Below are positions 32,298 through 63,112 of a DNA stretch of 64,000 bases, in pieces; position 1 is the first letter of the stretch; each line of letters starts with the position of its first letter. Source of the DNA: Opitutus sp. ER46 (GTDB lineage: Bacteria; Verrucomicrobiota; Verrucomicrobiia; Opitutales; Opitutaceae); assembly GCF_003054705.1 (NCBI RefSeq), contig NZ_QAYX01000022.1, positions 310,001-374,000 on the forward strand, in the 5' to 3' direction. Below the pieces are notes generated by a model. It ran no database searches, was not told where the DNA came from, and was given only the letters and a program-made list of their open reading frames with translations. The position numbers and the translations under genes are program-made.

Positions 32298-32527
32298 GGA
32301 AGTGAAAGTGGCCTCCGGAGTGAAAGTGGCCTGCGGAGTGACAGTGAAAGTGAGAGTGAAAGTGCCCGGATCTTTCTCTTACTCTTACTCGTCCTCTTCC
32401 TCTTGCTCTCACACCATCGATCGCTCGAACCAGCGGCCCCCTCACTCGATACTTCACTCACGCCGCCTCACTTTCCGCCGCCTCCTCACCAATCCGCCTC
32501 CGATCCACTTTCACTTTCACTCTCCCC
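32298..32527 (+). repeat. Hexamer repeat cluster before the SMP-30-like gene
   Basis: Three imperfect period-6 tracts. About 32298-32362: AGTGAA / AGTGAG units mixed with an 18-bp variant (GTGGCCT, C/G-CGG). About 32371-32411: TCTTAC, TCGTCC, TCTTCC, TCTTGC units. About 32504-32523: CACTTT and CACTCT units, ending four bases before the ATG at 32528. The first tract is the reverse complement type of the third, so the leader could fold into a long imperfect hairpin. Confidence 0.75.
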
Positions 32528-41954: not shown

Positions 41955-44900
41955 ATGTCCGCGAAGACCACTGTTCCCTCCGCGTCGTCCACCGTGCCCG
42001 GATCCTCCCCGGCCAGCCCCGCCTCCCTCCGGCCCGTCCGGAAACTGATGGCCGCCAACCGCAGCGAGATCGCCGTCCGCGTCTTTCGCGCCGGCACCGA
42101 GCTGAACCTCCGCACCGTCGCCATCTACGCCCAGGAAGACCGGCTCTGCATCCACCGGTACAAGGCCGACGAAGCGTACCAGGTCGGCCAGGGCAAGGGC
42201 CCCGTCGCTGCCTACCTCGACATTCCCAGCATCATCGGCGTCGCGCGCGAACATGGCGTCGACGCCATCCACCCGGGCTACGGCTTCCTCTCCGAGAACG
42301 CCGACTTTGCCCGCGCCTGCGAGGAGGCCGGCCTCGTGTTCGTCGGCCCGCGTTCCGAACTGCTCGACCTCATGGGCGACAAAACCGCTGCTCGCGCCCT
42401 CGCCCAGCGCATCGGCGTGCCCACGCTGCCGGGCACCGACGAACCCGTTTCCGACCGCGACGAGGCCCTGCGCATCGCCAAGTCCATCGGCTTCCCCCTC
42501 ATCATCAAGGCCGCCTTCGGCGGCGGCGGCCGCGGCATGCGCGTCGTGCCCAAGGCCGCCGACCTGGCCGCCCTCCTCGACGAGGCCCAGGCCGAGGCCG
42601 GCCGCGCCTTCGGCAATCCCGCCGTCTTCCTCGAGAAGTACATCCCCCGCGCCAAGCACATCGAGGTCCAGATCCTCGGCGACAAACACGGCAACGTCCT
42701 CCACCTCCACGAGCGCGACTGCTCCGTCCAGCGCCGCCACCAGAAGGTCATCGAGGTCGCCCCGTCCTTCGGTCTCCCGCCCGAGGTCGTGCGCCAGCTC
42801 TGCGAGGCCGCCGCCCGCCTCGCCCGCGAGATCCGCTACGACAACGCCGGCACCGTCGAATTCCTCTACGACCTCGACCGCCACGAGTGGTTCTTCATCG
42901 AGATGAACCCGCGTATCCAAGTGGAGCACACGGTCACCGAGGAGATCACCGGCATCGACCTCGTCCGCGCCCAGATTCTCGTCGCCCAGGGCCACTCCCT
43001 CCACGGGCCCGAGATCGGACTGCCCGCCCAGGCCGACATCCCGCGCCACGGCTTTGCCATCCAGTGCCGCATCACCACCGAGGACCCGGAGAACCGCTTC
43101 ATTCCCGACTACGGCCGCATCCTCGCCTACCGCTCGCCCGGCGGCTTCGGGCTCCGCCTCGACGGCGGCATGGGCTACGCCGGCGCCGTCATCACCCCGT
43201 TCTACGATTCGCTCCTGGTCAAAAGCATCACCAGCGCGCCGTCCTACGAGCTCGCCATCAAGCGCGCGCTCCGTGTCCTGAGCGAATTCCGTATCCGCGG
43301 CGTCAAGACGAACATCCCGTTCCTCGAGAACGTTCTCGCCCACCCCGCCTTCCGCAGCGGCCAGGCCACCACGACGCTCATCGACACCACGCCCGAGCTG
43401 TTCGCCTTCCGCCCGCGTCGCGACCGCGCCACCAAGCTGCTCGCCTTCATCGGCGACGTCGTCGTGAACGGCAACCCGCACGCCAAGGGCTACCGTCCCG
43501 ACAAGCCGTTTCTCTACCCGCCCGTCCTCGACTACGACCGCACCGCCACCCCGCCCGCCGGCACCCGCCAGCGGCTGCTCGAGCTCGGCCCGCGCAAGTT
43601 CGCCGAATGGACCGCCCGCCAGCGCGCCCTGCTCGTCACCGACACCACCTGGCGCGACGCCCACCAGTCCCTCATGGCCACCCGCGTGCGCTCGTACGAC
43701 ATGCTCGCCGCGGCCGACGCCATCGCCCACCGCGTGCCCCAGCTCTTTTCCCTCGAGATGTGGGGCGGCGCCACGTTCGACACCGCCATGCGGTTCCTCA
43801 ACGAGGACCCGTGGGAACGCCTCCGCCAGCTCCGCGCCCGCGTCCCCAACATCTGCTTCCAGATGCTGTTCCGCGGCGCCAACGCCGTCGGCTACACCAA
43901 CTACCCCGACCACGTTGTCGCCGGCTTCGTCCGCCACGCCGCCGCCAGCGGCATGGACATCTTCCGCGTCTTCGACTCGCTCAACTACCTGCCGAATCTC
44001 CGCGTCGCCATGGAGGCGATCAACGAGACACACGCCGTGTGCGAGGCCGCCGTGTGCTACACCGGCGACATCCTCGACGACCGTCGGGACAAGTACTCGC
44101 TCAAGTACTACGTCCGCCTCGCCCGCGAACTCGAGCGGATGGGTGCCCACTTCCTCGCCATCAAGGACATGGCCGGCCTCTGCCGCCCCTACGCCGCCTA
44201 TAAGCTCGTCAAGGCGCTCAAGGAGGAGGTCGGCCTCCCCATCCACTTCCACACGCACGACACCAGCGGCATCGCCGCCGCCAGCGTCCTGCGCGCCAGC
44301 GACGCCGGCGTCGATGTCGTCGATCTCGCCATCGCCTCGATGAGCGGCAGCACGTCACAGCCCAACCTCAACTCGATCGTCGCCGCCCTCCAGCACACCC
44401 CGCGCGACACCGGCCTCGACCTGGGCACGCTCAACCAGGCCTCCGACTATTGGGAGGCCGTCCGCGAGTTCTACCGGCCATTCGACACGGCGCCGAAAAG
44501 CGGCTCCGCCGAGGTCTACCTGCACGAGATGCCCGGCGGCCAGTACACCAACCTCAAGGAGCAGGCCAACGCCATGGGCGTCGCCCACCGCTGGCCCGAA
44601 ATCGCCCGCACCTACGCCGAGGTCAACCAGCTGTTCGGCGACATCGTGAAGGTCACGCCGTCCTCCAAGGTCGTCGGCGACATGGCGCTCTTCCTCTTCA
44701 CCCGCGGCATCAAACCCGCCGACGTCGTCAACCTCGAGCCCGGCGCCATGCCGTTCCCCGAAAGCGTCATCGACATGATGATGGGCGGCCTCGGCTGGCC
44801 CGCGGGCGGCTGGCCCGAGCCCGTCTGGCGCGTCATCCTCGGCGACGCCCGGCTCAAGGAGGCCCAGGCCCGCTACTCCGCCGCCACCCGCGCGAAGGCC

Positions 44901-45530
44901 GACCGCGCCGCCAAGCGCTCCCGCGCCGCGAGTCCCGCCGTGGAACTGGAACGGCTGCGGACCGAGCTAAGTGAGAAGCTCAAGCGGCCCGCGACCGACG
45001 ACGACCTCTACTCGCACCTGATGTACCCGCAGGTCTTCGCGGACTTCCTCAAGCACCGCCAGGCCTTCGACAACGTCTCTGTCCTGCCCACGCCCGTGTT
45101 CTTCTACGGACTGAAGGAAGGCCAGGAGATTGCCGTCAGCATCGAGGAGGGCAAGGTCCTCATGATCCGGCTCGTCTCGATCGGCGCGCCCGACCAGGAC
45201 GGCCGCCGCACCCTCAGCTACGAGCTCAACGGCATGGGCCGCGAAACGTTCGTCGTCGACCGCAGCGTCGCGCCGAAGACCAAGGCCCGCGCCAAGGCCG
45301 ATCTCTCCGATTCCACCCAGGTCGCCGCCCCCATCCCCGGCCTCATCGCCCAGCTCCAGATCTCCGTCGGCTCCAAGGTCACGAAGGGCGACAAGCTTCT
45401 CATGATGGAAGCGATGAAGATGCAGAACACGGTCTACGCCCCCTGCTCCGGCGTCGTCTCCGAACTCTTCGTCGCTCTCGGCGACACCGTCGAAAGCAAG
45501 GACCTCTTGGCCCGCATCCGCCCAGCATGA
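41955..45530 (+). CDS. pyc: Pyruvate carboxylase
   Basis: 1191 aa, the full single-chain enzyme that makes oxaloacetate from pyruvate, bicarbonate and ATP (anaplerosis). Order: biotin carboxylase (about 28-480; VRKLMAANRSEIAVRVFRA, ATP-grasp loop KAAFGGGGRGMRVV, FIEMNPRIQVEHTVTE), carboxyltransferase (about 555-830; DTTWRDAHQSLMATRVR, SLEMWGGATFD, GLPIHFHTHDTSG), the allosteric/tetramerisation region, and a biotinyl domain with K1155 in MEAMKMQ. An extra 28 residues rich in Ser, Pro and Ala precede the first domain; the ATG at 41955 is kept because no better in-frame start lies before VRKL. The stop is followed immediately by a repeat-and-hairpin element. Confidence 0.97.
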   Translation: MSAKTTVPSASSTVPGSSPASPASLRPVRKLMAANRSEIAVRVFRAGTELNLRTVAIYAQEDRLCIHRYKADEAYQVGQGKGPVAAYLDIPSIIGVAREHGVDAIHPGYGFLSENADFARACEEAGLVFVGPRSELLDLMGDKTAARALAQRIGVPTLPGTDEPVSDRDEALRIAKSIGFPLIIKAAFGGGGRGMRVVPKAADLAALLDEAQAEAGRAFGNPAVFLEKYIPRAKHIEVQILGDKHGNVLHLHERDCSVQRRHQKVIEVAPSFGLPPEVVRQLCEAAARLAREIRYDNAGTVEFLYDLDRHEWFFIEMNPRIQVEHTVTEEITGIDLVRAQILVAQGHSLHGPEIGLPAQADIPRHGFAIQCRITTEDPENRFIPDYGRILAYRSPGGFGLRLDGGMGYAGAVITPFYDSLLVKSITSAPSYELAIKRALRVLSEFRIRGVKTNIPFLENVLAHPAFRSGQATTTLIDTTPELFAFRPRRDRATKLLAFIGDVVVNGNPHAKGYRPDKPFLYPPVLDYDRTATPPAGTRQRLLELGPRKFAEWTARQRALLVTDTTWRDAHQSLMATRVRSYDMLAAADAIAHRVPQLFSLEMWGGATFDTAMRFLNEDPWERLRQLRARVPNICFQMLFRGANAVGYTNYPDHVVAGFVRHAAASGMDIFRVFDSLNYLPNLRVAMEAINETHAVCEAAVCYTGDILDDRRDKYSLKYYVRLARELERMGAHFLAIKDMAGLCRPYAAYKLVKALKEEVGLPIHFHTHDTSGIAAASVLRASDAGVDVVDLAIASMSGSTSQPNLNSIVAALQHTPRDTGLDLGTLNQASDYWEAVREFYRPFDTAPKSGSAEVYLHEMPGGQYTNLKEQANAMGVAHRWPEIARTYAEVNQLFGDIVKVTPSSKVVGDMALFLFTRGIKPADVVNLEPGAMPFPESVIDMMMGGLGWPAGGWPEPVWRVILGDARLKEAQARYSAATRAKADRAAKRSRAASPAVELERLRTELSEKLKRPATDDDLYSHLMYPQVFADFLKHRQAFDNVSVLPTPVFFYGLKEGQEIAVSIEEGKVLMIRLVSIGAPDQDGRRTLSYELNGMGRETFVVDRSVAPKTKARAKADLSDSTQVAAPIPGLIAQLQISVGSKVTKGDKLLMMEAMKMQNTVYAPCSGVVSELFVALGDTVESKDLLARIRPA

Positions 45531-45535
45531 AAAAA

Positions 45536-45616
45536 GGGAATGAGGGAGTGAGGGAGTGAGGGAATAAGGGGGCGGCACGCCCCCCCAACTCTTTCTCTTT
45601 CTCTTTCTCGTTCTCC
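45536..45616 (+). repeat. Octamer - hairpin - hexamer element behind pyruvate carboxylase
   Basis: Starting six bases after the pyc stop: four octamers, GGGAATGA, GGGAGTGA, GGGAGTGA and GGGAATAA (45536-45567). Then a perfect hairpin, GGGGGCG-GCA-CGCCCCC (45568-45584). Then imperfect hexamers CTTTCT / CGTTCT (about 45590-45616). The hairpin followed by a pyrimidine-rich tract could act as an atypical terminator. A further short hexamer tract lies near 45697-45712. Confidence 0.8.
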
Positions 45617-45755
45617 CCATCCGTCTCACCGCCGACGTCCGGCCATCTATTCCAGCGATTAAGGGATCGAGGGCATCTAGGCTAGCGAGCCCCCGTCGTT
45701 CTCGTTCTCCCCATCGGTCTCACCGGCCTCCGGCCTTCCGTCATTCCAAACTCTG

Positions 45756-45809
45756 CATTCTCCATTCTGCATTCTCCATTCTCCATTAGCCGGCGCGTCA
45801 CGCGCCGGC
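45756..45809 (-). repeat. Gene-end hairpin plus heptamer element, copy 1
   Basis: On the plus strand, heptamers CATTCTC, CATTCTG, CATTCTC, CATTCTC, then CATTAG (45756-45789), then a perfect 9-bp hairpin, GCCGGCGCG-TCA-CGCGCCGGC (45789-45809). Read in the direction of the aldo/keto reductase gene, the order is stop codon, one base, hairpin, TAATG, repeated GAGAATG. The same layout recurs at 62072-62137. Confidence 0.8.
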
Positions 45810-45810
45810 G

Positions 45811-46686
45811 TCAGAACGGCACGTTCATCGGATCAGCCCCTGTCCGCTGGTCGCGATCCAGTGCGTCGATCGCCGCCATCTCCTCCTCGCTGAGCACGAA
45901 GTCGAAGATGGCGGCATTCTCCGCCATCCGCTCCTGATGCTGCGTCTTCGGGATCGTCACGATTCCGCCCTGCACGTCCCAGCGCAGGATCACCTGCGCG
46001 ATCGTCTTGCGGTGCCGCGCGGCAATCGCGGTCAGCGTCGGATCCTGCAGCACGGCCCCTCCGACCATGAGCGGACTCCACGCCTCCAGCTGGATCCCCT
46101 TTCCCCGACAATATTCGAGGAGCGGCCGGCTCTGCAGGTACGGGTGAAACTCGATCTGGTTCACGGCTGGTACGACCTCCGCCTCCGCCAGCAATTCCTC
46201 CAGGTGCGGCACCATGTGATTGCTCACGCCGATCGCCTTCACGCGGCCGGTCAGGAGCAGTTTCTCCACCGCCTTCCACGTCGCCACCACCTTGCCGCGA
46301 ATCGGCCAGTGCACGAGATAAAGGTCCACGTAATCGAGCCCGAGCGCCCGCAGACTGGCCTCGAACGCCTCCGCCACCCGGCCCGTGCGGATATCGTCGT
46401 TCCACACCTTCGTGGTGACGAACAATTCCTCGCGCGGCACCCCGCTGGCCCGCACCGCCCGGCCTACTCCCCGCTCATTCCCGTAGATTGTCGCCGTGTC
46501 GATGCTGCGATACCCCAGGTCGATCGCGCTGCGCACCACGCGCTCCGTCGCCGCGTCGCCGCTGATCTGCCACACGCCGAGCCCGAGCCACGGAATCCCG
46601 CCGCCATGCGCGAGCGGCACCGTCGCCCGCAGGCCAAAGTTGGGTGACTTGAAGGTGGCCGTAAGTCTCCGCTGGGAAGATGGCAT
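45811..46686 (-). CDS. Aldo/keto reductase
   Basis: 291 aa, a TIM-barrel NADPH-dependent carbonyl reductase of the AKR5-like group. The catalytic tetrad is D63, Y68, K93 and H126 in SIDTATIYGNE, VTTKVWND and LVHWPI. Further family motifs: IGVSNHMVPHLEELL, NQIEFHPYLQ, LEAWSPLM and IPKTQHQERMAEN at the NADPH phosphate-binding loop. The substrate is unknown; relatives reduce 2,5-diketo-gluconate, methylglyoxal and other aldehydes. It starts at the ATG before PSSQRRLTATFK. Its 3' end converges on pyc across the repeat region; its 5' end faces an 855-bp non-coding stretch. Confidence 0.92.
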   Translation of the reverse strand: MPSSQRRLTATFKSPNFGLRATVPLAHGGGIPWLGLGVWQISGDAATERVVRSAIDLGYRSIDTATIYGNERGVGRAVRASGVPREELFVTTKVWNDDIRTGRVAEAFEASLRALGLDYVDLYLVHWPIRGKVVATWKAVEKLLLTGRVKAIGVSNHMVPHLEELLAEAEVVPAVNQIEFHPYLQSRPLLEYCRGKGIQLEAWSPLMVGGAVLQDPTLTAIAARHRKTIAQVILRWDVQGGIVTIPKTQHQERMAENAAIFDFVLSEEEMAAIDALDRDQRTGADPMNVPF

Positions 46687-46989: not shown

Positions 46990-47350
46990 AGGGAGTGAGG
47001 GAATGAGGGAATGAGGGAGTGAGTGGCGCCGGCTCCTCCTCCTCTCGTGGGATCGGTCGTTCTCGTTCTCTTTCTCTTTCTCGTTCTCTCAATGACCCGG
47101 CTCAAGGGCTCGCGGAATTGCCCCGCGCCCCAGTCCCCCAAAAAATCGTTCTCGTTCTCGTACTCGTTCTGGCCCCTCCGCGCCCTCCGTCCGCATCTTT
47201 CTCTTACTCTTCCTCTTTCTCTTCCTCTCGACGGCTCACTGGATCGAAGGTTTGGACCCGCCGCCATAACCCGGCGCCCCCCGCGTCTTCGCCCGGCCCC
47301 GCGCCTCGCACAAACAGAGCAGGAGCAAGAGTAAGAGTAAGAGTAAGAAC
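46990..47350. repeat. Octamer and hexamer repeat cluster
   Basis: Four octamers GGGAGTGA, GGGAATGA, GGGAATGA, GGGAGTGA (46990-47021) are followed by TTCTCG/TTCTCT hexamers at about 47058-47090, TCGTTC-type hexamers at about 47145-47170, a TCTTNC-type tract at 47197-47229, and a reverse-complement AGTAAG tract at 47321-47350. The last two can pair across about 90 bases. The remainder of the 46.7-47.5 kb gap shows no gene; no promoter for the kinase operon is obvious. Confidence 0.75.
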
Positions 47351-54388: not shown

Positions 54389-54689
54389 CGCCCACAGGCC
54401 CATCTGGCCCGACCCTGTGTTCCGCGTCCCGCGTGTAACGCCGTGTCCTCATCCGAAATGTGACGCCCATCTCCGGAAATGGGGTCGTCACCGCGTCACA
54501 AATTTCCCCCTCTCCGCGCTTCCGCTCGCCCCTCCTTTCGCCATACTCTCCCACCCCGCCGCACTCTCCGCCCCCACTCCGTCTCCGCCCCCACTCCGTC
54601 TCCGCCCCACTCCGTTTCCGCCCCACTTTCACTCTCACTTTCACTTTCACTCCGCAGGTCACTTTCACTCCGAAGGCCTTTCACTTCTC
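54389..54689 (+). repeat. Pyrimidine repeat leader before the propeller gene
   Basis: After the stop of the S55 gene come CTCCGCCCC-type units of roughly 18 bases (about 54565-54622), then TTTCAC/TCTCAC hexamers (about 54622-54655) and two further copies separated by CCGCAGG and CCGAAGG, running to the GTG at 54690. No promoter consensus is visible. Confidence 0.7.
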
Positions 54690-56980: not shown

Positions 56981-57085
56981 CTCTTTCTCTTGCTCCTACT
57001 CTTCCTCTTTCTCTCGAGGGATTGAGGGATTGAGGGATTGAGGGATTGAGGGATTGAGGCACCGGCAATCGTTCTCGTTCTCTCA
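56981..57085 (+). repeat. Hexamer - octamer - hexamer element
   Basis: Begins two bases after the stop of the propeller gene: TCTTTC, TCTTGC, TCCTAC, TCTTCC and TCTTTC hexamers (about 56982-57014), then five perfect octamers GAGGGATT and a partial one (57016-57059), then CACCGGC and TTCTCG hexamers (about 57068-57085). Confidence 0.85.
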
Positions 57086-58229: not shown

Positions 58230-58773
58230 CCCGGGTTCGTCGCGTTCAGGTGATCGGTTCGAACGAAAGGGGTCTTCCCTGGTTCGACCGAAGGCGATCA
58301 AAAGGAGTCATCCCTTACCGTTTGCCTTTTGCCAACGCTGACGTTCTCCGCGGCATAGCGCGAGCGGCGTGCAACGAGGCTGATCGCGCCGGCTTTCACA
58401 GGCGGCGAATTCTTGCTCCATGCAAATCGTTCTGCCGCGCCGAGCCTGCCTCCTCAACTCTGTTTCCAGGGTACCGCCTTCGAGAGAACTGCCGTCGCAC
58501 GCGACTCCATGACGATGGCGGCGTTTCCCGCCGTTCATTCTCGCCGTGACCGGATCATCGTCCGCACGCGAACGTCTCGCGGAAACAGCGTGAATCCTGT
58601 GTCGATCGCGTAGCGGCGATCCTCAGAAATCCACGCGGCTCGCTTCAGATTCCCTCACAATTTCCGCGCAGAGTATCCGGACATTATGAAAAAGTATCCG
58701 GACATTATGGCGGAGTATCTGGACATTATCCCGCAACCCATTGCCACCACGCTCGTAATAATTGCAGCCCTCG
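58230..58773. repeat. Long direct repeat, copy 1
   Basis: 544 bp, nearly identical to 60058-60600 (roughly 97% by eye; about fifteen changes and one single-base indel, mostly in the second half). It begins CCCGGGTTCGTCGCG and ends AATTGCAGCCCTCG. Near its end are three 21-bp iterons, AGTATCCGGACATTATG plus four bases, at 58672, 58693 and 58714. Open frames inside it change mostly at non-synonymous positions between copies, so it is probably not coding. Confidence 0.9.
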
Positions 58774-58784
58774 AGGACTAAGCT

Positions 58785-60051
58785 AAAGGGGACGGACACG
58801 TTCGCCACATGAAACTGCGCAGGGATCGTCCGTCGTCCATCGATTTCGGGGATTGGCCGACATTAAAGGGCTTCAGCCTCAGCCGAGATCTCTCGGCGCG
58901 CTCGTCGGTGTTCTCATCGGCGCCGCGGGTCCGACATTGCTTTCATGCCGAACACCGAAGGGCAGCTCCGCCCCGTGCGCGGCTCCCTGCCGCGTTCGCC
59001 CACAAGTTCGGTCAGCTCAGCAAGGCTCCGCGAAGCGGTCGCAAGCCGGCGATTTCACCCCAGCCGGGGTCCGGCAGGTCATGACGTTTCACTCGATGGG
59101 TCAGGCTGTGCTTCGTCCGGTACGCGGCGACGTGCTCGTCGACGAACTCCCGCCCACCCAGGACAACCCCCTCGCTGAAATACCGGATCCGGCAGCGGAG
59201 CACGTCGGGCAGGCTCAGTTTCCCGCCGGCCTCGACCGCGGCCCGCACCTGCTTGACGGGGAGCGATGCCCTCCCCTCGCGCGCCGCGCCGCCGCTCGTG
59301 AACAGCAGCAGCCGATAGCTGCACTGCGCCTGCTCCCAGTTTCCCCCCACCACCGCCTGCAGGCCTTGGCGCGCGGGGACATGGCCACTCACCGCCTCAG
59401 CGTACCCGCAGAACCGGTAGTCCTTCGGATCCTTCGAGATTCCGGCGCGGACGCAGTTGAGATCGATGTACGCCGCCACCGTCTGGACGACCCGCTCCTT
59501 ACCCTCGAGCAACTGGCTCTTGAACCGATCCGCCCACACGGGTCCAAACCGCCGATGTCGGGCGTTGTACCAGATCGAGAAACGCTCCTTCAGCAGCTTC
59601 ATGTACTGAGATACGTCGTACATCAACGCCCGCTGCCGCTTGCGCCACGCCTCGGCGGCGGGGGTGTTCGCCGCCAGCCCGGCCCGGATCACCTCCAGCC
59701 GCGCAACTTGGTGCTTGGTCGGTTTCGGATAAAGCACCGCGTAGCGCCGGAGCAGTTCCGCGTCCGAGAGCTCCGGTCGCTGCGGCACCTGCACCAGCAA
59801 ATGAAAGTGATTCGACATGATGGCGTAGGTGAGGATCTCAACCCCGGCGAAGTCTGCCACCTGCCACATCTGCCGCCGCAGGATCTCCTTGGCGGTCGTG
59901 CCAAACATCCACTCCCCGTTCACCGTCCGGCTGATCAAGTGGTACACGCCCGGCTCCAGCTCCGAGTTCACTTTGATCCGTGCGCGCCGCATGCGCTACC
60001 GACAATTGTTTTTTACCTTTTAGTCAATCCATTTGCGTGTCTGTCCCCCTT
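58785..60051 (-). mobile_element. Y1 (REP-associated) transposase element between the repeats
   Basis: Imperfect terminal inverted repeats flank the transposase gene: AAAGGGGACGGACACG at 58785-58800 and CGTGTCTGTCCCCCTT at 60036-60051. It sits 11 bp from direct-repeat copy 1 and 6 bp from copy 2. Size about 1.27 kb, one gene. Confidence 0.65.
59012..59992 (-). CDS. REP-associated tyrosine transposase (Y1, IS200-like fold)
   Basis: 326 aa. The HUH motif is in ILTYAIMSNHFHLLVQVP. The catalytic tyrosine is likely in YDVSQYMKLLKERFSIWYN; the family block RRFGPVWADRFKSQLLEG, then VVQTVAAYIDLNCVRAG, is intact. RAYT proteins nick single-stranded DNA and act on REP hairpins scattered in the host genome; most are domesticated single copies. 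The C-terminal 120 residues are an extension without a recognised domain. The reading frame is complete, so it may be active. The start is the ATG before RRARIKVNSELEPG. Confidence 0.9.
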   Translation of the reverse strand: MRRARIKVNSELEPGVYHLISRTVNGEWMFGTTAKEILRRQMWQVADFAGVEILTYAIMSNHFHLLVQVPQRPELSDAELLRRYAVLYPKPTKHQVARLEVIRAGLAANTPAAEAWRKRQRALMYDVSQYMKLLKERFSIWYNARHRRFGPVWADRFKSQLLEGKERVVQTVAAYIDLNCVRAGISKDPKDYRFCGYAEAVSGHVPARQGLQAVVGGNWEQAQCSYRLLLFTSGGAAREGRASLPVKQVRAAVEAGGKLSLPDVLRCRIRYFSEGVVLGGREFVDEHVAAYRTKHSLTHRVKRHDLPDPGWGEIAGLRPLRGALLS

Positions 60052-60057
60052 GGCTCT

Positions 60058-60600
60058 CCCGGGTTCGTCGCGTTCAGGTGATCGGTTCGAACGAAAGGGG
60101 TCTTCCCTGGTTCGACCGAAGGCGATCAAAAGGAGTCATCCCTTACCGTTTGCCTTTTGCCAACGCTGACGTTCTCCGCGGCATAGCGCGAGCGGCGTGC
60201 AACGAGGCTGATCGCGCCGGCTTTCACAGGCGGCGAATTCTTGCTCCATGCAAATCGTTCTGCCGCGCCGAGCCTGCCTCCTCAACTCTGTTTCCAGGGC
60301 ACCGCCTTCGAGAGAACTGCCGTCGCACGCGACCCCGCGACAATGGCGGCGTTTCCCGCCGTTCATTCTCGCCGTGAACGCGTCATCGTCCGCACGCGAG
60401 CTCTCGCGGAAGCAGCGTGAATCCTGTGTCGGTCGCGTAGCAGCGATCCTCAGAAATGCGCGCGGCTCGCTTCAGATTCCCTCACGATTTCCGCGCAGAG
60501 TATCCGGACATTATGAAAAAGTATCCGGACATTATGGCGGAGTATCTGGACATTATCCCGCAACCCATTGCCACCACGCCTGTAATAATTGCAGCCCTCG
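60058..60600. repeat. Long direct repeat, copy 2
   Basis: 543 bp, same orientation as copy 1 at 58230-58773. The three 21-bp iterons are at 60499, 60520 and 60541. It ends about 180-245 bp before the low-coordinate end of the CRISPR array. Confidence 0.9.
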
Positions 60601-60845: not shown

Positions 60846-61803
<958 letters not shown>

Positions 61804-62071: not shown

Positions 62072-62137
62072 CATTCTAAATTCTGCATTCTACATTCTAC
62101 ATTAGCGTGATGCGGCCGCGCCGCGGCCGCATCACGC
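62072..62137 (-). repeat. Gene-end hairpin plus heptamer element, copy 2
   Basis: On the plus strand, heptamers CATTCTA, AATTCTG, CATTCTA, CATTCTA, then CATTAG (62072-62105). Then a perfect 16-bp hairpin: arms 62105-62120 and 62122-62137, first arm GCGTGATGCGGCCGCG. The stop codon of the xerC-like gene (62132-62134) lies inside the stem. The layout is the same as at 45756-45809. Confidence 0.85.
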
Positions 62138-63112
62138 TCGCGGGTGCGCTTTCGCGTAAATCTCCTTCAGCCGCGCCACGCTCACGTGCGTGTACACCTG
62201 CGTCGTCGCCAGCTGCGAGTGTCCCAGCAGCTCCTGCACGAGCCGCAGGTCCGCGCCCGCGTTGAGCAGGTGCGTCGCGTAACTGTGCCGCAGCTTGTGC
62301 GGCGTCAGGTCCAGCGGCAGCCCCGCCAGCGCCAGGTACCGCTTCAACATCTGCTGCACCGCCGACACGCTCATCCGCGTGCCGTTCGGATTCACCAGCA
62401 CCGGACTCGCCGGTCCGCTTTGCGGCGCGAACTCGCGCTTGAACTTCTCCAAGACCGCGATCGCCACGCGGCCCAGCGGACACAACCGCTCCTTGCGACC
62501 CTTGCCCAGCACGCGCGCCACGCCCGTATCCAGTTCGATCGCGCCATGGTTCAGCGCCACGAGTTCGCTCACGCGCAACCCGCCGCCGTAAAGCAACTCC
62601 ATCGCCAGCCGGTCCCGCCACGCGGTGTGCGCGTCGATCCCTTCGTTCGCCAGCAGCCGCTGCGGCCCGGCCAGCAGCAGCTTCATCTGCTCCTCGGTTA
62701 AGAATTTCGGCAGCCGCTTCTCCAGCTTCGGCAACGGCACGCCAAGAAACGGATTCCGCGTCAGCCGCCCGCGCCGCATCCAGAATTTGAAGAAGGTCCT
62801 CAGCCCCGACACGTGATTGTGCAGCGTCCGCCGGTCGAACCGCCGCTGCGCCTCGATCACGAAGTCACGCATCTCCCGCACCCCGAGCGCCTCGAACCCG
62901 CCCGCCCACAGGCCGGAGCCTTCCAGCCAGCGGTAGAAATCCTCAAACGCCTGCCGGTAGTTGCGCACCGTGTACGCTGAACAGCGGCGCTCCTGCGCCA
63001 GATGATCGGCAAACGGCTGCCACCACTCCGCCACCACCGCCGGCGGCACCGGAGCCAGCGCCGGATGTCCCGCCGCCGCCCCGCCCCCACCGGAACTCTC
63101 GGGCGCGCCCAT
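62132..63112 (-). CDS. xerC: XerC/D-type tyrosine recombinase
   Basis: 326 aa. The N-terminal SAM-like DNA-binding domain (about 25-120) and the catalytic domain are complete. Catalytic residues: R180 (YGGGLRVSEL), K204 (GKGRKERL), H272 and R275 (PHKLRHSYATHLL), H298 (LGHSQLATTQ) and Y307 (VYTHVSV). Xer recombinases resolve chromosome dimers at dif; some copies instead move mobile DNA. The position 15 bp behind mazG, with an ordinary composition, favours the chromosomal role. Residues 1-20 (SGGGGAAAGHPALAP) are low complexity. XerC and XerD cannot be separated from the sequence alone. Confidence 0.9.
   Translation of the reverse strand: MGAPESSGGGGAAAGHPALAPVPPAVVAEWWQPFADHLAQERRCSAYTVRNYRQAFEDFYRWLEGSGLWAGGFEALGVREMRDFVIEAQRRFDRRTLHNHVSGLRTFFKFWMRRGRLTRNPFLGVPLPKLEKRLPKFLTEEQMKLLLAGPQRLLANEGIDAHTAWRDRLAMELLYGGGLRVSELVALNHGAIELDTGVARVLGKGRKERLCPLGRVAIAVLEKFKREFAPQSGPASPVLVNPNGTRMSVSAVQQMLKRYLALAGLPLDLTPHKLRHSYATHLLNAGADLRLVQELLGHSQLATTQVYTHVSVARLKEIYAKAHPRA

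Follow-up and report, generated by a model that had tools for sequence, protein, structure and literature searches.

The gene-end repeats of the window

The window, a stretch of 64,000 nt from the genome of Opitutus sp. ER46, carries two short repeats on the minus strand, one at the 3′ end of a xerC-like tyrosine recombinase gene and one behind an aldo/keto reductase (AKR) gene (Table 1). In both, a GC-rich hairpin abuts a TAATG motif that is followed by tandem heptamers. This layout, on which the original prediction was based, is borne out at both sites, with the correction that the stem of copy 1 has 15 bp and is 16 bp long only if a 1-nt centre is allowed.

Table 1. Positions of the two repeats and of their host genes in the window
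Feature	Positions	Strand	Description
End hairpin, copy 1	62105..62137	-	GC-rich, 15 bp, 3-nt loop
End array, copy 1	62072..62104	-	TAATG + four NAGAATK heptamers
xerC-like tyrosine recombinase gene (host)	62132..63112	-	326 aa, PF00589, Pfam-confirmed
End hairpin, copy 2	45789..45809	-	GC-rich, 9 bp, 3-nt loop, 1 nt after AKR stop
End array, copy 2	45742..45788	-	TAATG + four NAGAATG heptamers (to 45756) + two degenerate units
Aldo/keto reductase (AKR) gene (host)	45811..46686	-	PF00248, Pfam-confirmed; stop 45813-45811

Copy 1 reads, on the minus strand, TAATG (62104-62100, with no gap after the hairpin) and then TAGAATG TAGAATG CAGAATT TAGAATG; with the preceding GC, the array forms five 7-nt units. 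The xerC stop codon (62134-62132, the gene ending in GCG TGA) lies inside the left arm of the hairpin at 62137-62105. Copy 2 has TAATG at 45788-45784, then GAGAATG GAGAATG CAGAATG GAGAATG and two weaker units. The two hairpins are unlike each other in sequence. What directly follows them on the 3′ side is TAATGNAGAATG; by eye no T-run is present, and the view that these are not normal terminators stands. No inverted partner array was called for either copy, and both are ORF-less, i.e. no gene is present for IVP (PF05635), the four-helix intervening-sequence protein of 23S rRNA.

Copies in the Opitutus sp. ER46 genome

The genome comprises 5.71 Mb in 25 contigs. It has 38 matches to AGAATGNAGAATNNAGAAT (27 + 11, overlaps counted; control 0 + 0) and 63 + 39 matches to AATGNAGAATKNAGAATKNAGAATK with up to three mismatches (overlaps counted; control 0 + 0), the positions of the latter type being taken from the first approximately 100 among the matches listed. 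TAATGNAGAATG is found 17 times, with one match in the control. The further copies that had been predicted are indeed present: 44 arrays were found in the window (2) and in 30 other stretches of the same genome (42), as against 2 in the reversed sequence. The 30 stretches were picked for holding such repeats, and counts based on the 44 arrays describe the copies and not genome-wide rates; genes in these stretches and in the window were called with a simple codon-usage model.

The number of units is nearly constant. Five 7-nt units (GC-TAATG plus four NAGAATK) make up 32 of the 44 arrays, and the others have three (2 arrays), four (4), six (4) or seven (2). Among 43 distinct arrays 29 start with TAATG and 14 with other sequences, seven of which are GCAAATG; several of the GCAAATG arrays come straight after a stop codon. 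A stem of at least 7 bp lies flush with 16 of the 29 distinct TAATG arrays, compared with 132 of 3056 control positions, which cover up to 60 nt after 191 other stops and are therefore non-independent. Two of the 29 are without any stem of 4 bp. None of the 14 arrays with other starts has a stem of at least 7 bp, the array start and hence the place examined being uncertain for a few. An identical 33-nt array is present at three loci where the upstream stems differ and measure 13, 9 and 4 bp. The suggestion that stems vary while the layout is kept is correct, but it does not extend to the arrays that start otherwise than with TAATG.

The arrays also favour the downstream side of genes, on the sense strand, as was foreseen: 26 of the 44 begin no more than 45 nt behind a 3′ end in the sense orientation. 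Four lie within 45 nt of a 5′ end, and the others are farther off, two from a 3′ end and 12 from a 5′ end, so that for 16 of the 44 the upstream neighbour is a gene 5′ end and not a 3′ end. An inverted partner is found 10–160 nt downstream of 15 arrays and a direct partner in three cases; at 600–750 nt none of the 44 has an inverted partner. Inverted pairs also occur between tandem genes (L220, L232 and L245), and this implies that pairing belongs to the element and does not represent one signal per gene. The arrays are therefore better described as the ends of an often symmetrical element: the proposal of a shared gene-end element holds with respect to the 3′-end bias but not with respect to its stand-alone status.

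Sequences beside the ORF-less arrays have little in common. A match of 14/16 was found in 9 of 903 pairs downstream and 11 of 903 upstream, with none in shuffled sequences, which argues that the ORF-less copies are not simple deletions of a single IVP parent, and that origin was rejected. At one locus (L241; G000:C24:392893 and 398495) the same array and the same upstream flank are present twice, 5.6 kb apart, probably by duplication of the host gene.

Distribution in relatives and other phyla

Exact TAATGNAGAATGNAGAAT is present in six of 200 family genomes, that of ER46 included. The family is probably Opitutaceae, as the sequence of an array locus in one member (G034, L079) is identical to that of a locus in Opitutaceae bacterium EW11 (L127). 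Among 27 genomes of the genus, searched with three mismatches, ER46 has 102 matches and seven others have 1 to 9, some of these counts being no higher than their controls. No array follows xerC at 22 loci from relatives within the genus (22 xerC ends out of 24 relative loci), and two adjacent AGAATK units are found nowhere in those 24 loci. Likewise, at 30 relative loci of the PhoH, FabZ, CobO and YqeY genes no array follows the stop and three units occur nowhere; one FabZ locus (L407) has two AGAATK units, the sole case among the 30. Absence behind the same genes in relatives indicates that the ER46 copies are probably recent in this lineage.

Among the matches listed, a related array pattern is found in Bacteroidota, Fibrobacter, Cyanobacteria, Bacillota and others. 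At 117 such loci, again among the matches listed, 39 arrays start no more than 50 nt from a 3′ end in the sense orientation and 13 equally close to a 5′ end; 10 start farther from a 3′ end and 17 farther from a 5′ end, and three have no upstream gene. The remaining 35 of the 117 lie inside a called ORF and may be chance matches in coding DNA. At one of the 117 (L180), the array, by eye, likewise ends a xerC-like gene.

AAGAATG/GRAAATG elements are numerous in two sister species of one genus, here termed G002 and G051. If ends with four or more units are counted, a threshold that very short ends would escape, there are 26, of which 24 have five units; the stem is flush and 7 bp or longer at 10 of the ends and lacking at four. 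A presence/absence pair was found in which G002 has a 187-nt element and G051 has 34 nt at the same place, with flanks that are 95% identical. The pair could also represent a deletion. In this one case the G051 site shows, by eye, a 5-bp hairpin after the stop, which fits an order in which the hairpin comes first. The analysed loci showed neither target duplication nor movement, and no copying enzyme came to light in them. When counterparts of three G002 copies were sought by synteny in 12 G051 stretches, none was found, and comparison of one array locus (L080) with G002 gave matches in the arrays alone and none in the flanks.

One paired element lies, in both species, within an open frame of 623–624 codons with ATPase motifs that runs right through it (L379 and L389). 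In the left hairpin of this in-frame element all three substitutions preserve pairing, and one pair is changed on both sides (G:C to A:T); the right hairpin has a single one-sided change. Another element common to the two species has an unchanged left hairpin and two substitutions in the right hairpin that weaken pairing. Compensatory stem changes, which had been expected, are thus seen in one hairpin and contradicted in another.

Association with IVP genes

Inverted AGAATK arrays 250–1500 nt apart were found at seven loci, and in four of these the enclosed ORF is a PF05635 gene (L225 in ER46, L191, L203 and L257; E values 3e-15 to 1e-34, above the Pfam cut-off). Such pairs enclosing a PF05635 gene occur in the ER46 genome and in a Bacteroidetes and a Clostridiales genome. 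At L225 the likely IVP start codon lies within the last heptamers. Among the 117 array-selected loci, as taken from the matches listed, a profile built in this analysis detected three IVP ORFs (two in Bacteroidetes, one in Clostridiales); their distances from the array are 4, 16 and 101 nt. PF05635 is present, among the matches listed, in 51 of 61 family genomes, with eight copies in ER46, and in none of 14 control genomes.

Seventy IVP loci, taken from the upper part of the matches listed and spread over related genomes, were compared; many occupy a gene junction that is shared with loci of other genomes, and counts of loci are therefore not independent. Autocorrelation is strongest at a lag of 7 nt in 47 of the upstream and 53 of the downstream flanks. 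For the IVP coding body this is so in 5 of 70 cases, and for flanks of other genes at these loci in 9 of 29 and 5 of 33; control flanks show some 7-nt period too. The left flank matches the reverse complement of the right flank (at least 18/21) at 43 of the 70 loci, as against 2 of 70 in cross-locus and 3 of 70 in direct comparisons. The heptamers vary by locus (GAGTTGA, GAGTCAG, TAGCGAG and others). Sixty of the 70 loci are between co-directional genes and 65 lie within 220 nt after a same-strand stop. A stem of at least 6 bp is present at the stop in 13 of these 65 IVP-bearing sites, with 3 of 67 and 18 of 190 in controls.

Five IVP genes of ER46 were inspected. That at L225 has AGAATK arrays and the other four have other repeats; L376 has a 6-nt unit and is flanked by inverted hexamer arrays. 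Over 49 of the 70 loci, IVP protein identity correlates with array similarity (Mantel r 0.58, and 0.25 for pairs below 60% identity; 0 of 1000 permutations each), a correlation that common descent alone can produce. In a tree of nine IVPs, the ER46 IVP of the AGAATK type groups with Bacteroidetes and Clostridiales IVPs, apart from six of its own family (100/100); the tree has few rows, and the ER46 sequence is a long branch.

IVP elements are found at recurring junction types in different genomes (L308, L310, L312, L315, L320-L322, L324-L326, L328, L344 and L365). By eye, these are after an NtrC-like gene and at pheS/pheT-like, urtA/urtB-like and gyrase-like genes. Either vertical inheritance or repeated insertion may be responsible.

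Relation to known elements

The closest likeness is to the intervening sequences (IVSs) of 23S rRNA that encode S23p/IVP. Published IVSs stand in place of a small loop in an rRNA helix and carry an IVP gene and terminal inverted repeats (PMC4990558); in the Coxiella 23S IVS, tandem heptamers are situated just before the IVP start codon (PMC4990558). The shared properties are thus the IVP ORF, the pre-start heptamers, the terminal inverted repeats, sporadic distribution and insertion at a small hairpin of host sequence (PMC4990558). Tandem heptamers upstream of the IVP start are likewise found at the IVP loci described here, and the window copies represent heptamers without the ORF and without a called inverted partner. 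In contrast to rRNA IVSs, the present elements are beside protein genes, mostly after stops, and have many copies per genome; most copies have no ORF and the heptamer sequences differ. As the arrays and IVP loci adjoin protein genes and not an rRNA gene helix, they are classed as relatives of IVSs and not as rRNA IVSs.

A second likeness is to diversity-generating retroelements (DGRs) with Avd. PF05635 resembles Avd (PMC10053308), and the DGR target needs a nearby GC-rich hairpin whose stem sequence is free (PMC3240598). The target gene's stop codon is drawn in the hairpin region (PMC3240598, PMC10053308, PMC12875486), and an Avd-like PF05635 protein and a GC-rich, free-stem target hairpin are thus features in common. 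The loops of the hairpins here, unlike those of DGRs, do not follow GRNA. Group IIC introns offer a further parallel, in that they insert beside terminator-like hairpins by structure and not by sequence (PMC3240598).

The TAACTGA repeats of Beggiatoaceae, Cyanobacteria and Bacteroidetes are also short intergenic tandem heptamers with presumed horizontal movement (PMC4679880). They differ in the heptamer and in being mostly just upstream of start codons (PMC4679880).

Proposed origin and alternative explanations

The IVP linkage, the hairpin of Avd and DGRs, and the published likenesses to IVSs lead us to regard the window feature as most likely the end array of an IVS-like element. In other words, a selfish element of the IVS/IVP class, ORF-less and MITE-like, probably has one of its ends here. 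An ideal full element would consist of a hairpin, TAATG, four heptamers, the IVP gene (PF05635), four inverted heptamers, CATTA and a hairpin, with the IVP start codon in the array or just after it. In ORF-less copies, one end array or both would be retained, together with a short spacer. The copies sit mostly after stop codons, where insertion may be tolerated and a hairpin either already stands or is formed.

A role for IVP may be modelled by analogy on its relative Avd, which aids the DGR reverse transcriptase at a target-adjacent hairpin. Avd is a pentamer. The nearest solved IVP structure, 2rld, has five chains, a chain count in a crystal entry that does not prove a pentamer. The constant five units together with the five chains suggest one heptamer per ring subunit. 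We infer that IVP, probably a pentamer, would bind the array with one of the five 7-nt units on each subunit, and that bound IVP might mark the element to be copied into gene ends that have a hairpin; movement and the order of events are part of the same model.

One alternative is a host regulatory signal, i.e. a terminator or mRNA 3′-end element whose hairpin stops transcription or protects the message and whose purine-rich heptamers bind a host RNA-binding protein. The sense-strand position of 26 of the 44 arrays just after 3′ ends, the flush hairpins and the pair-preserving changes in one hairpin are all compatible with such a signal, and S1, Csp or Csr proteins have been put forward for the TAACTGA heptamers (PMC4679880). 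We nevertheless consider it unlikely: by eye there is no T-run, the arrays are absent after xerC (22 loci of the genus) and after four other genes (30 loci, one with two AGAATK units), inverted copies also face 5′ ends, one copy in a relative is inside an ORF, and IVP genes are linked to the arrays. A fixed gene-end signal is weakened by the absence in genus relatives and by the inverted partners. The view first proposed, of a stand-alone gene-end element, is incomplete in the light of the inverted partners for 15 of 44 arrays, the 16 of 44 behind 5′ ends, the IVP-bearing relatives, the in-ORF copy and the absence at the same genes of genus relatives. A terminator or regulatory role is possible as a side effect of the element. 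Plain tandem repeats made by slippage, which chance to lie behind hairpins, are very improbable. Arrays of 6- and 8-nt units are present in the window as well, but slippage would not be expected to give arrays that have a near-constant five units, start at a defined place, pair with inverted copies, abut hairpins and are linked to IVP genes; chance or slippage was rejected on the pattern counts relative to controls and the constancy of unit number.

REPs have conserved stems and tags (GTAG/CGTC) and are tied to RAYT genes. An origin as a REP/REPIN-type element, with a Y1 (RAYT) transposase as the mover, has some appeal, as REP/REPIN elements and the present ones are both small dispersed palindromes found singly or in inverted pairs (PMC3733652, PMC3116915). 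On the other strand TTAG abuts the GC-rich hairpin, much as GTAG does in REPs, and an inverted pair of modules would equal a REPIN; Y1 transposase genes give 13 matches in the ER46 genome, one of them in the window. This origin is quite improbable, however. Y1 genes are present in all 12 genomes searched, including three (G214, G215 and G006) without a match to the array pattern. At 27 of 30 Y1 loci that could be used, where the longest ORF at each match was taken to be the gene and a few are thereby misplaced, two adjacent AGAATK units were not found (0 of 27); the best lag was 7 nt in none of the upstream and three of the downstream flanks, and nine loci have inverted flanks of their own. 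The array stems are not conserved in sequence, unlike those of REPs. REPIN/RAYT was thus rejected as the direct partner, and the earlier statement that this is not a known REP is upheld by the differing stems, the TTAG tag and the lack of RAYT linkage at these 27 loci.

With an IVS-like element as the preferred origin, the link to arrays offers a testable role for IVP/S23p genes, which are common in the family, as an array-binding mobility factor; PF05635/IVP is called functionally uncharacterised in PMC10053308. The link may also account for a kind of intergenic repeat met in several phyla, and it joins rRNA intervening sequences to the Avd of DGRs. In the open-licence PMC literature we found no report of a general IVP-heptamer arrangement outside rRNA, the Coxiella case being in print. 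A more speculative extension, which we regard as possible but less likely than not, is that PF05635 proteins might be recognition subunits in a class of bacterial mobile elements that is large but has gone unrecognised. Five-unit heptamer ends would be read by a pentameric ring, one unit per subunit, insertion by stop-codon hairpins would be structure-guided, each family would have its heptamer ‘address’ and ORF-less copies would spread in trans. Orphan heptamer repeats between genes in Bacteroidetes, Cyanobacteria and other groups could then, in many cases, be the ends of such elements.

Other repeats in the window

Tandem octamers, AGGGAATG and GAGGGATT, are found in the window at 45535-45570, 46990-47023 and 57016-57059, the first array directly after the stop of a convergent gene (41955-45530). 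They may be the ends of a similar element family. Tandem hexamers of the CTCTTT, TCGTTC and AGTGAA types are at 32337-32409, 45589-45615, 47057-47348, 54624-54651 and 56981-57014, and these may be element ends too, since inverted hexamer arrays flank the IVP gene at L376 in the same genome.

A Y1/RAYT-like transposase gene (PF01797) is situated at 59012-59992 on the minus strand. Two near-identical sets of a 21-nt repeat, AGTATCCGGACATTATGAAAA, flank it at 58672-58729 and 60499-60556, and are perhaps the RAYT gene's own repeat family. A CRISPR-like array (61110-61803), whose repeat starts with GTTTCAATCCGCGCGCCCACGAGGGGCGCGAC and has a period of approximately 65–67 nt, separates this gene from the xerC element.
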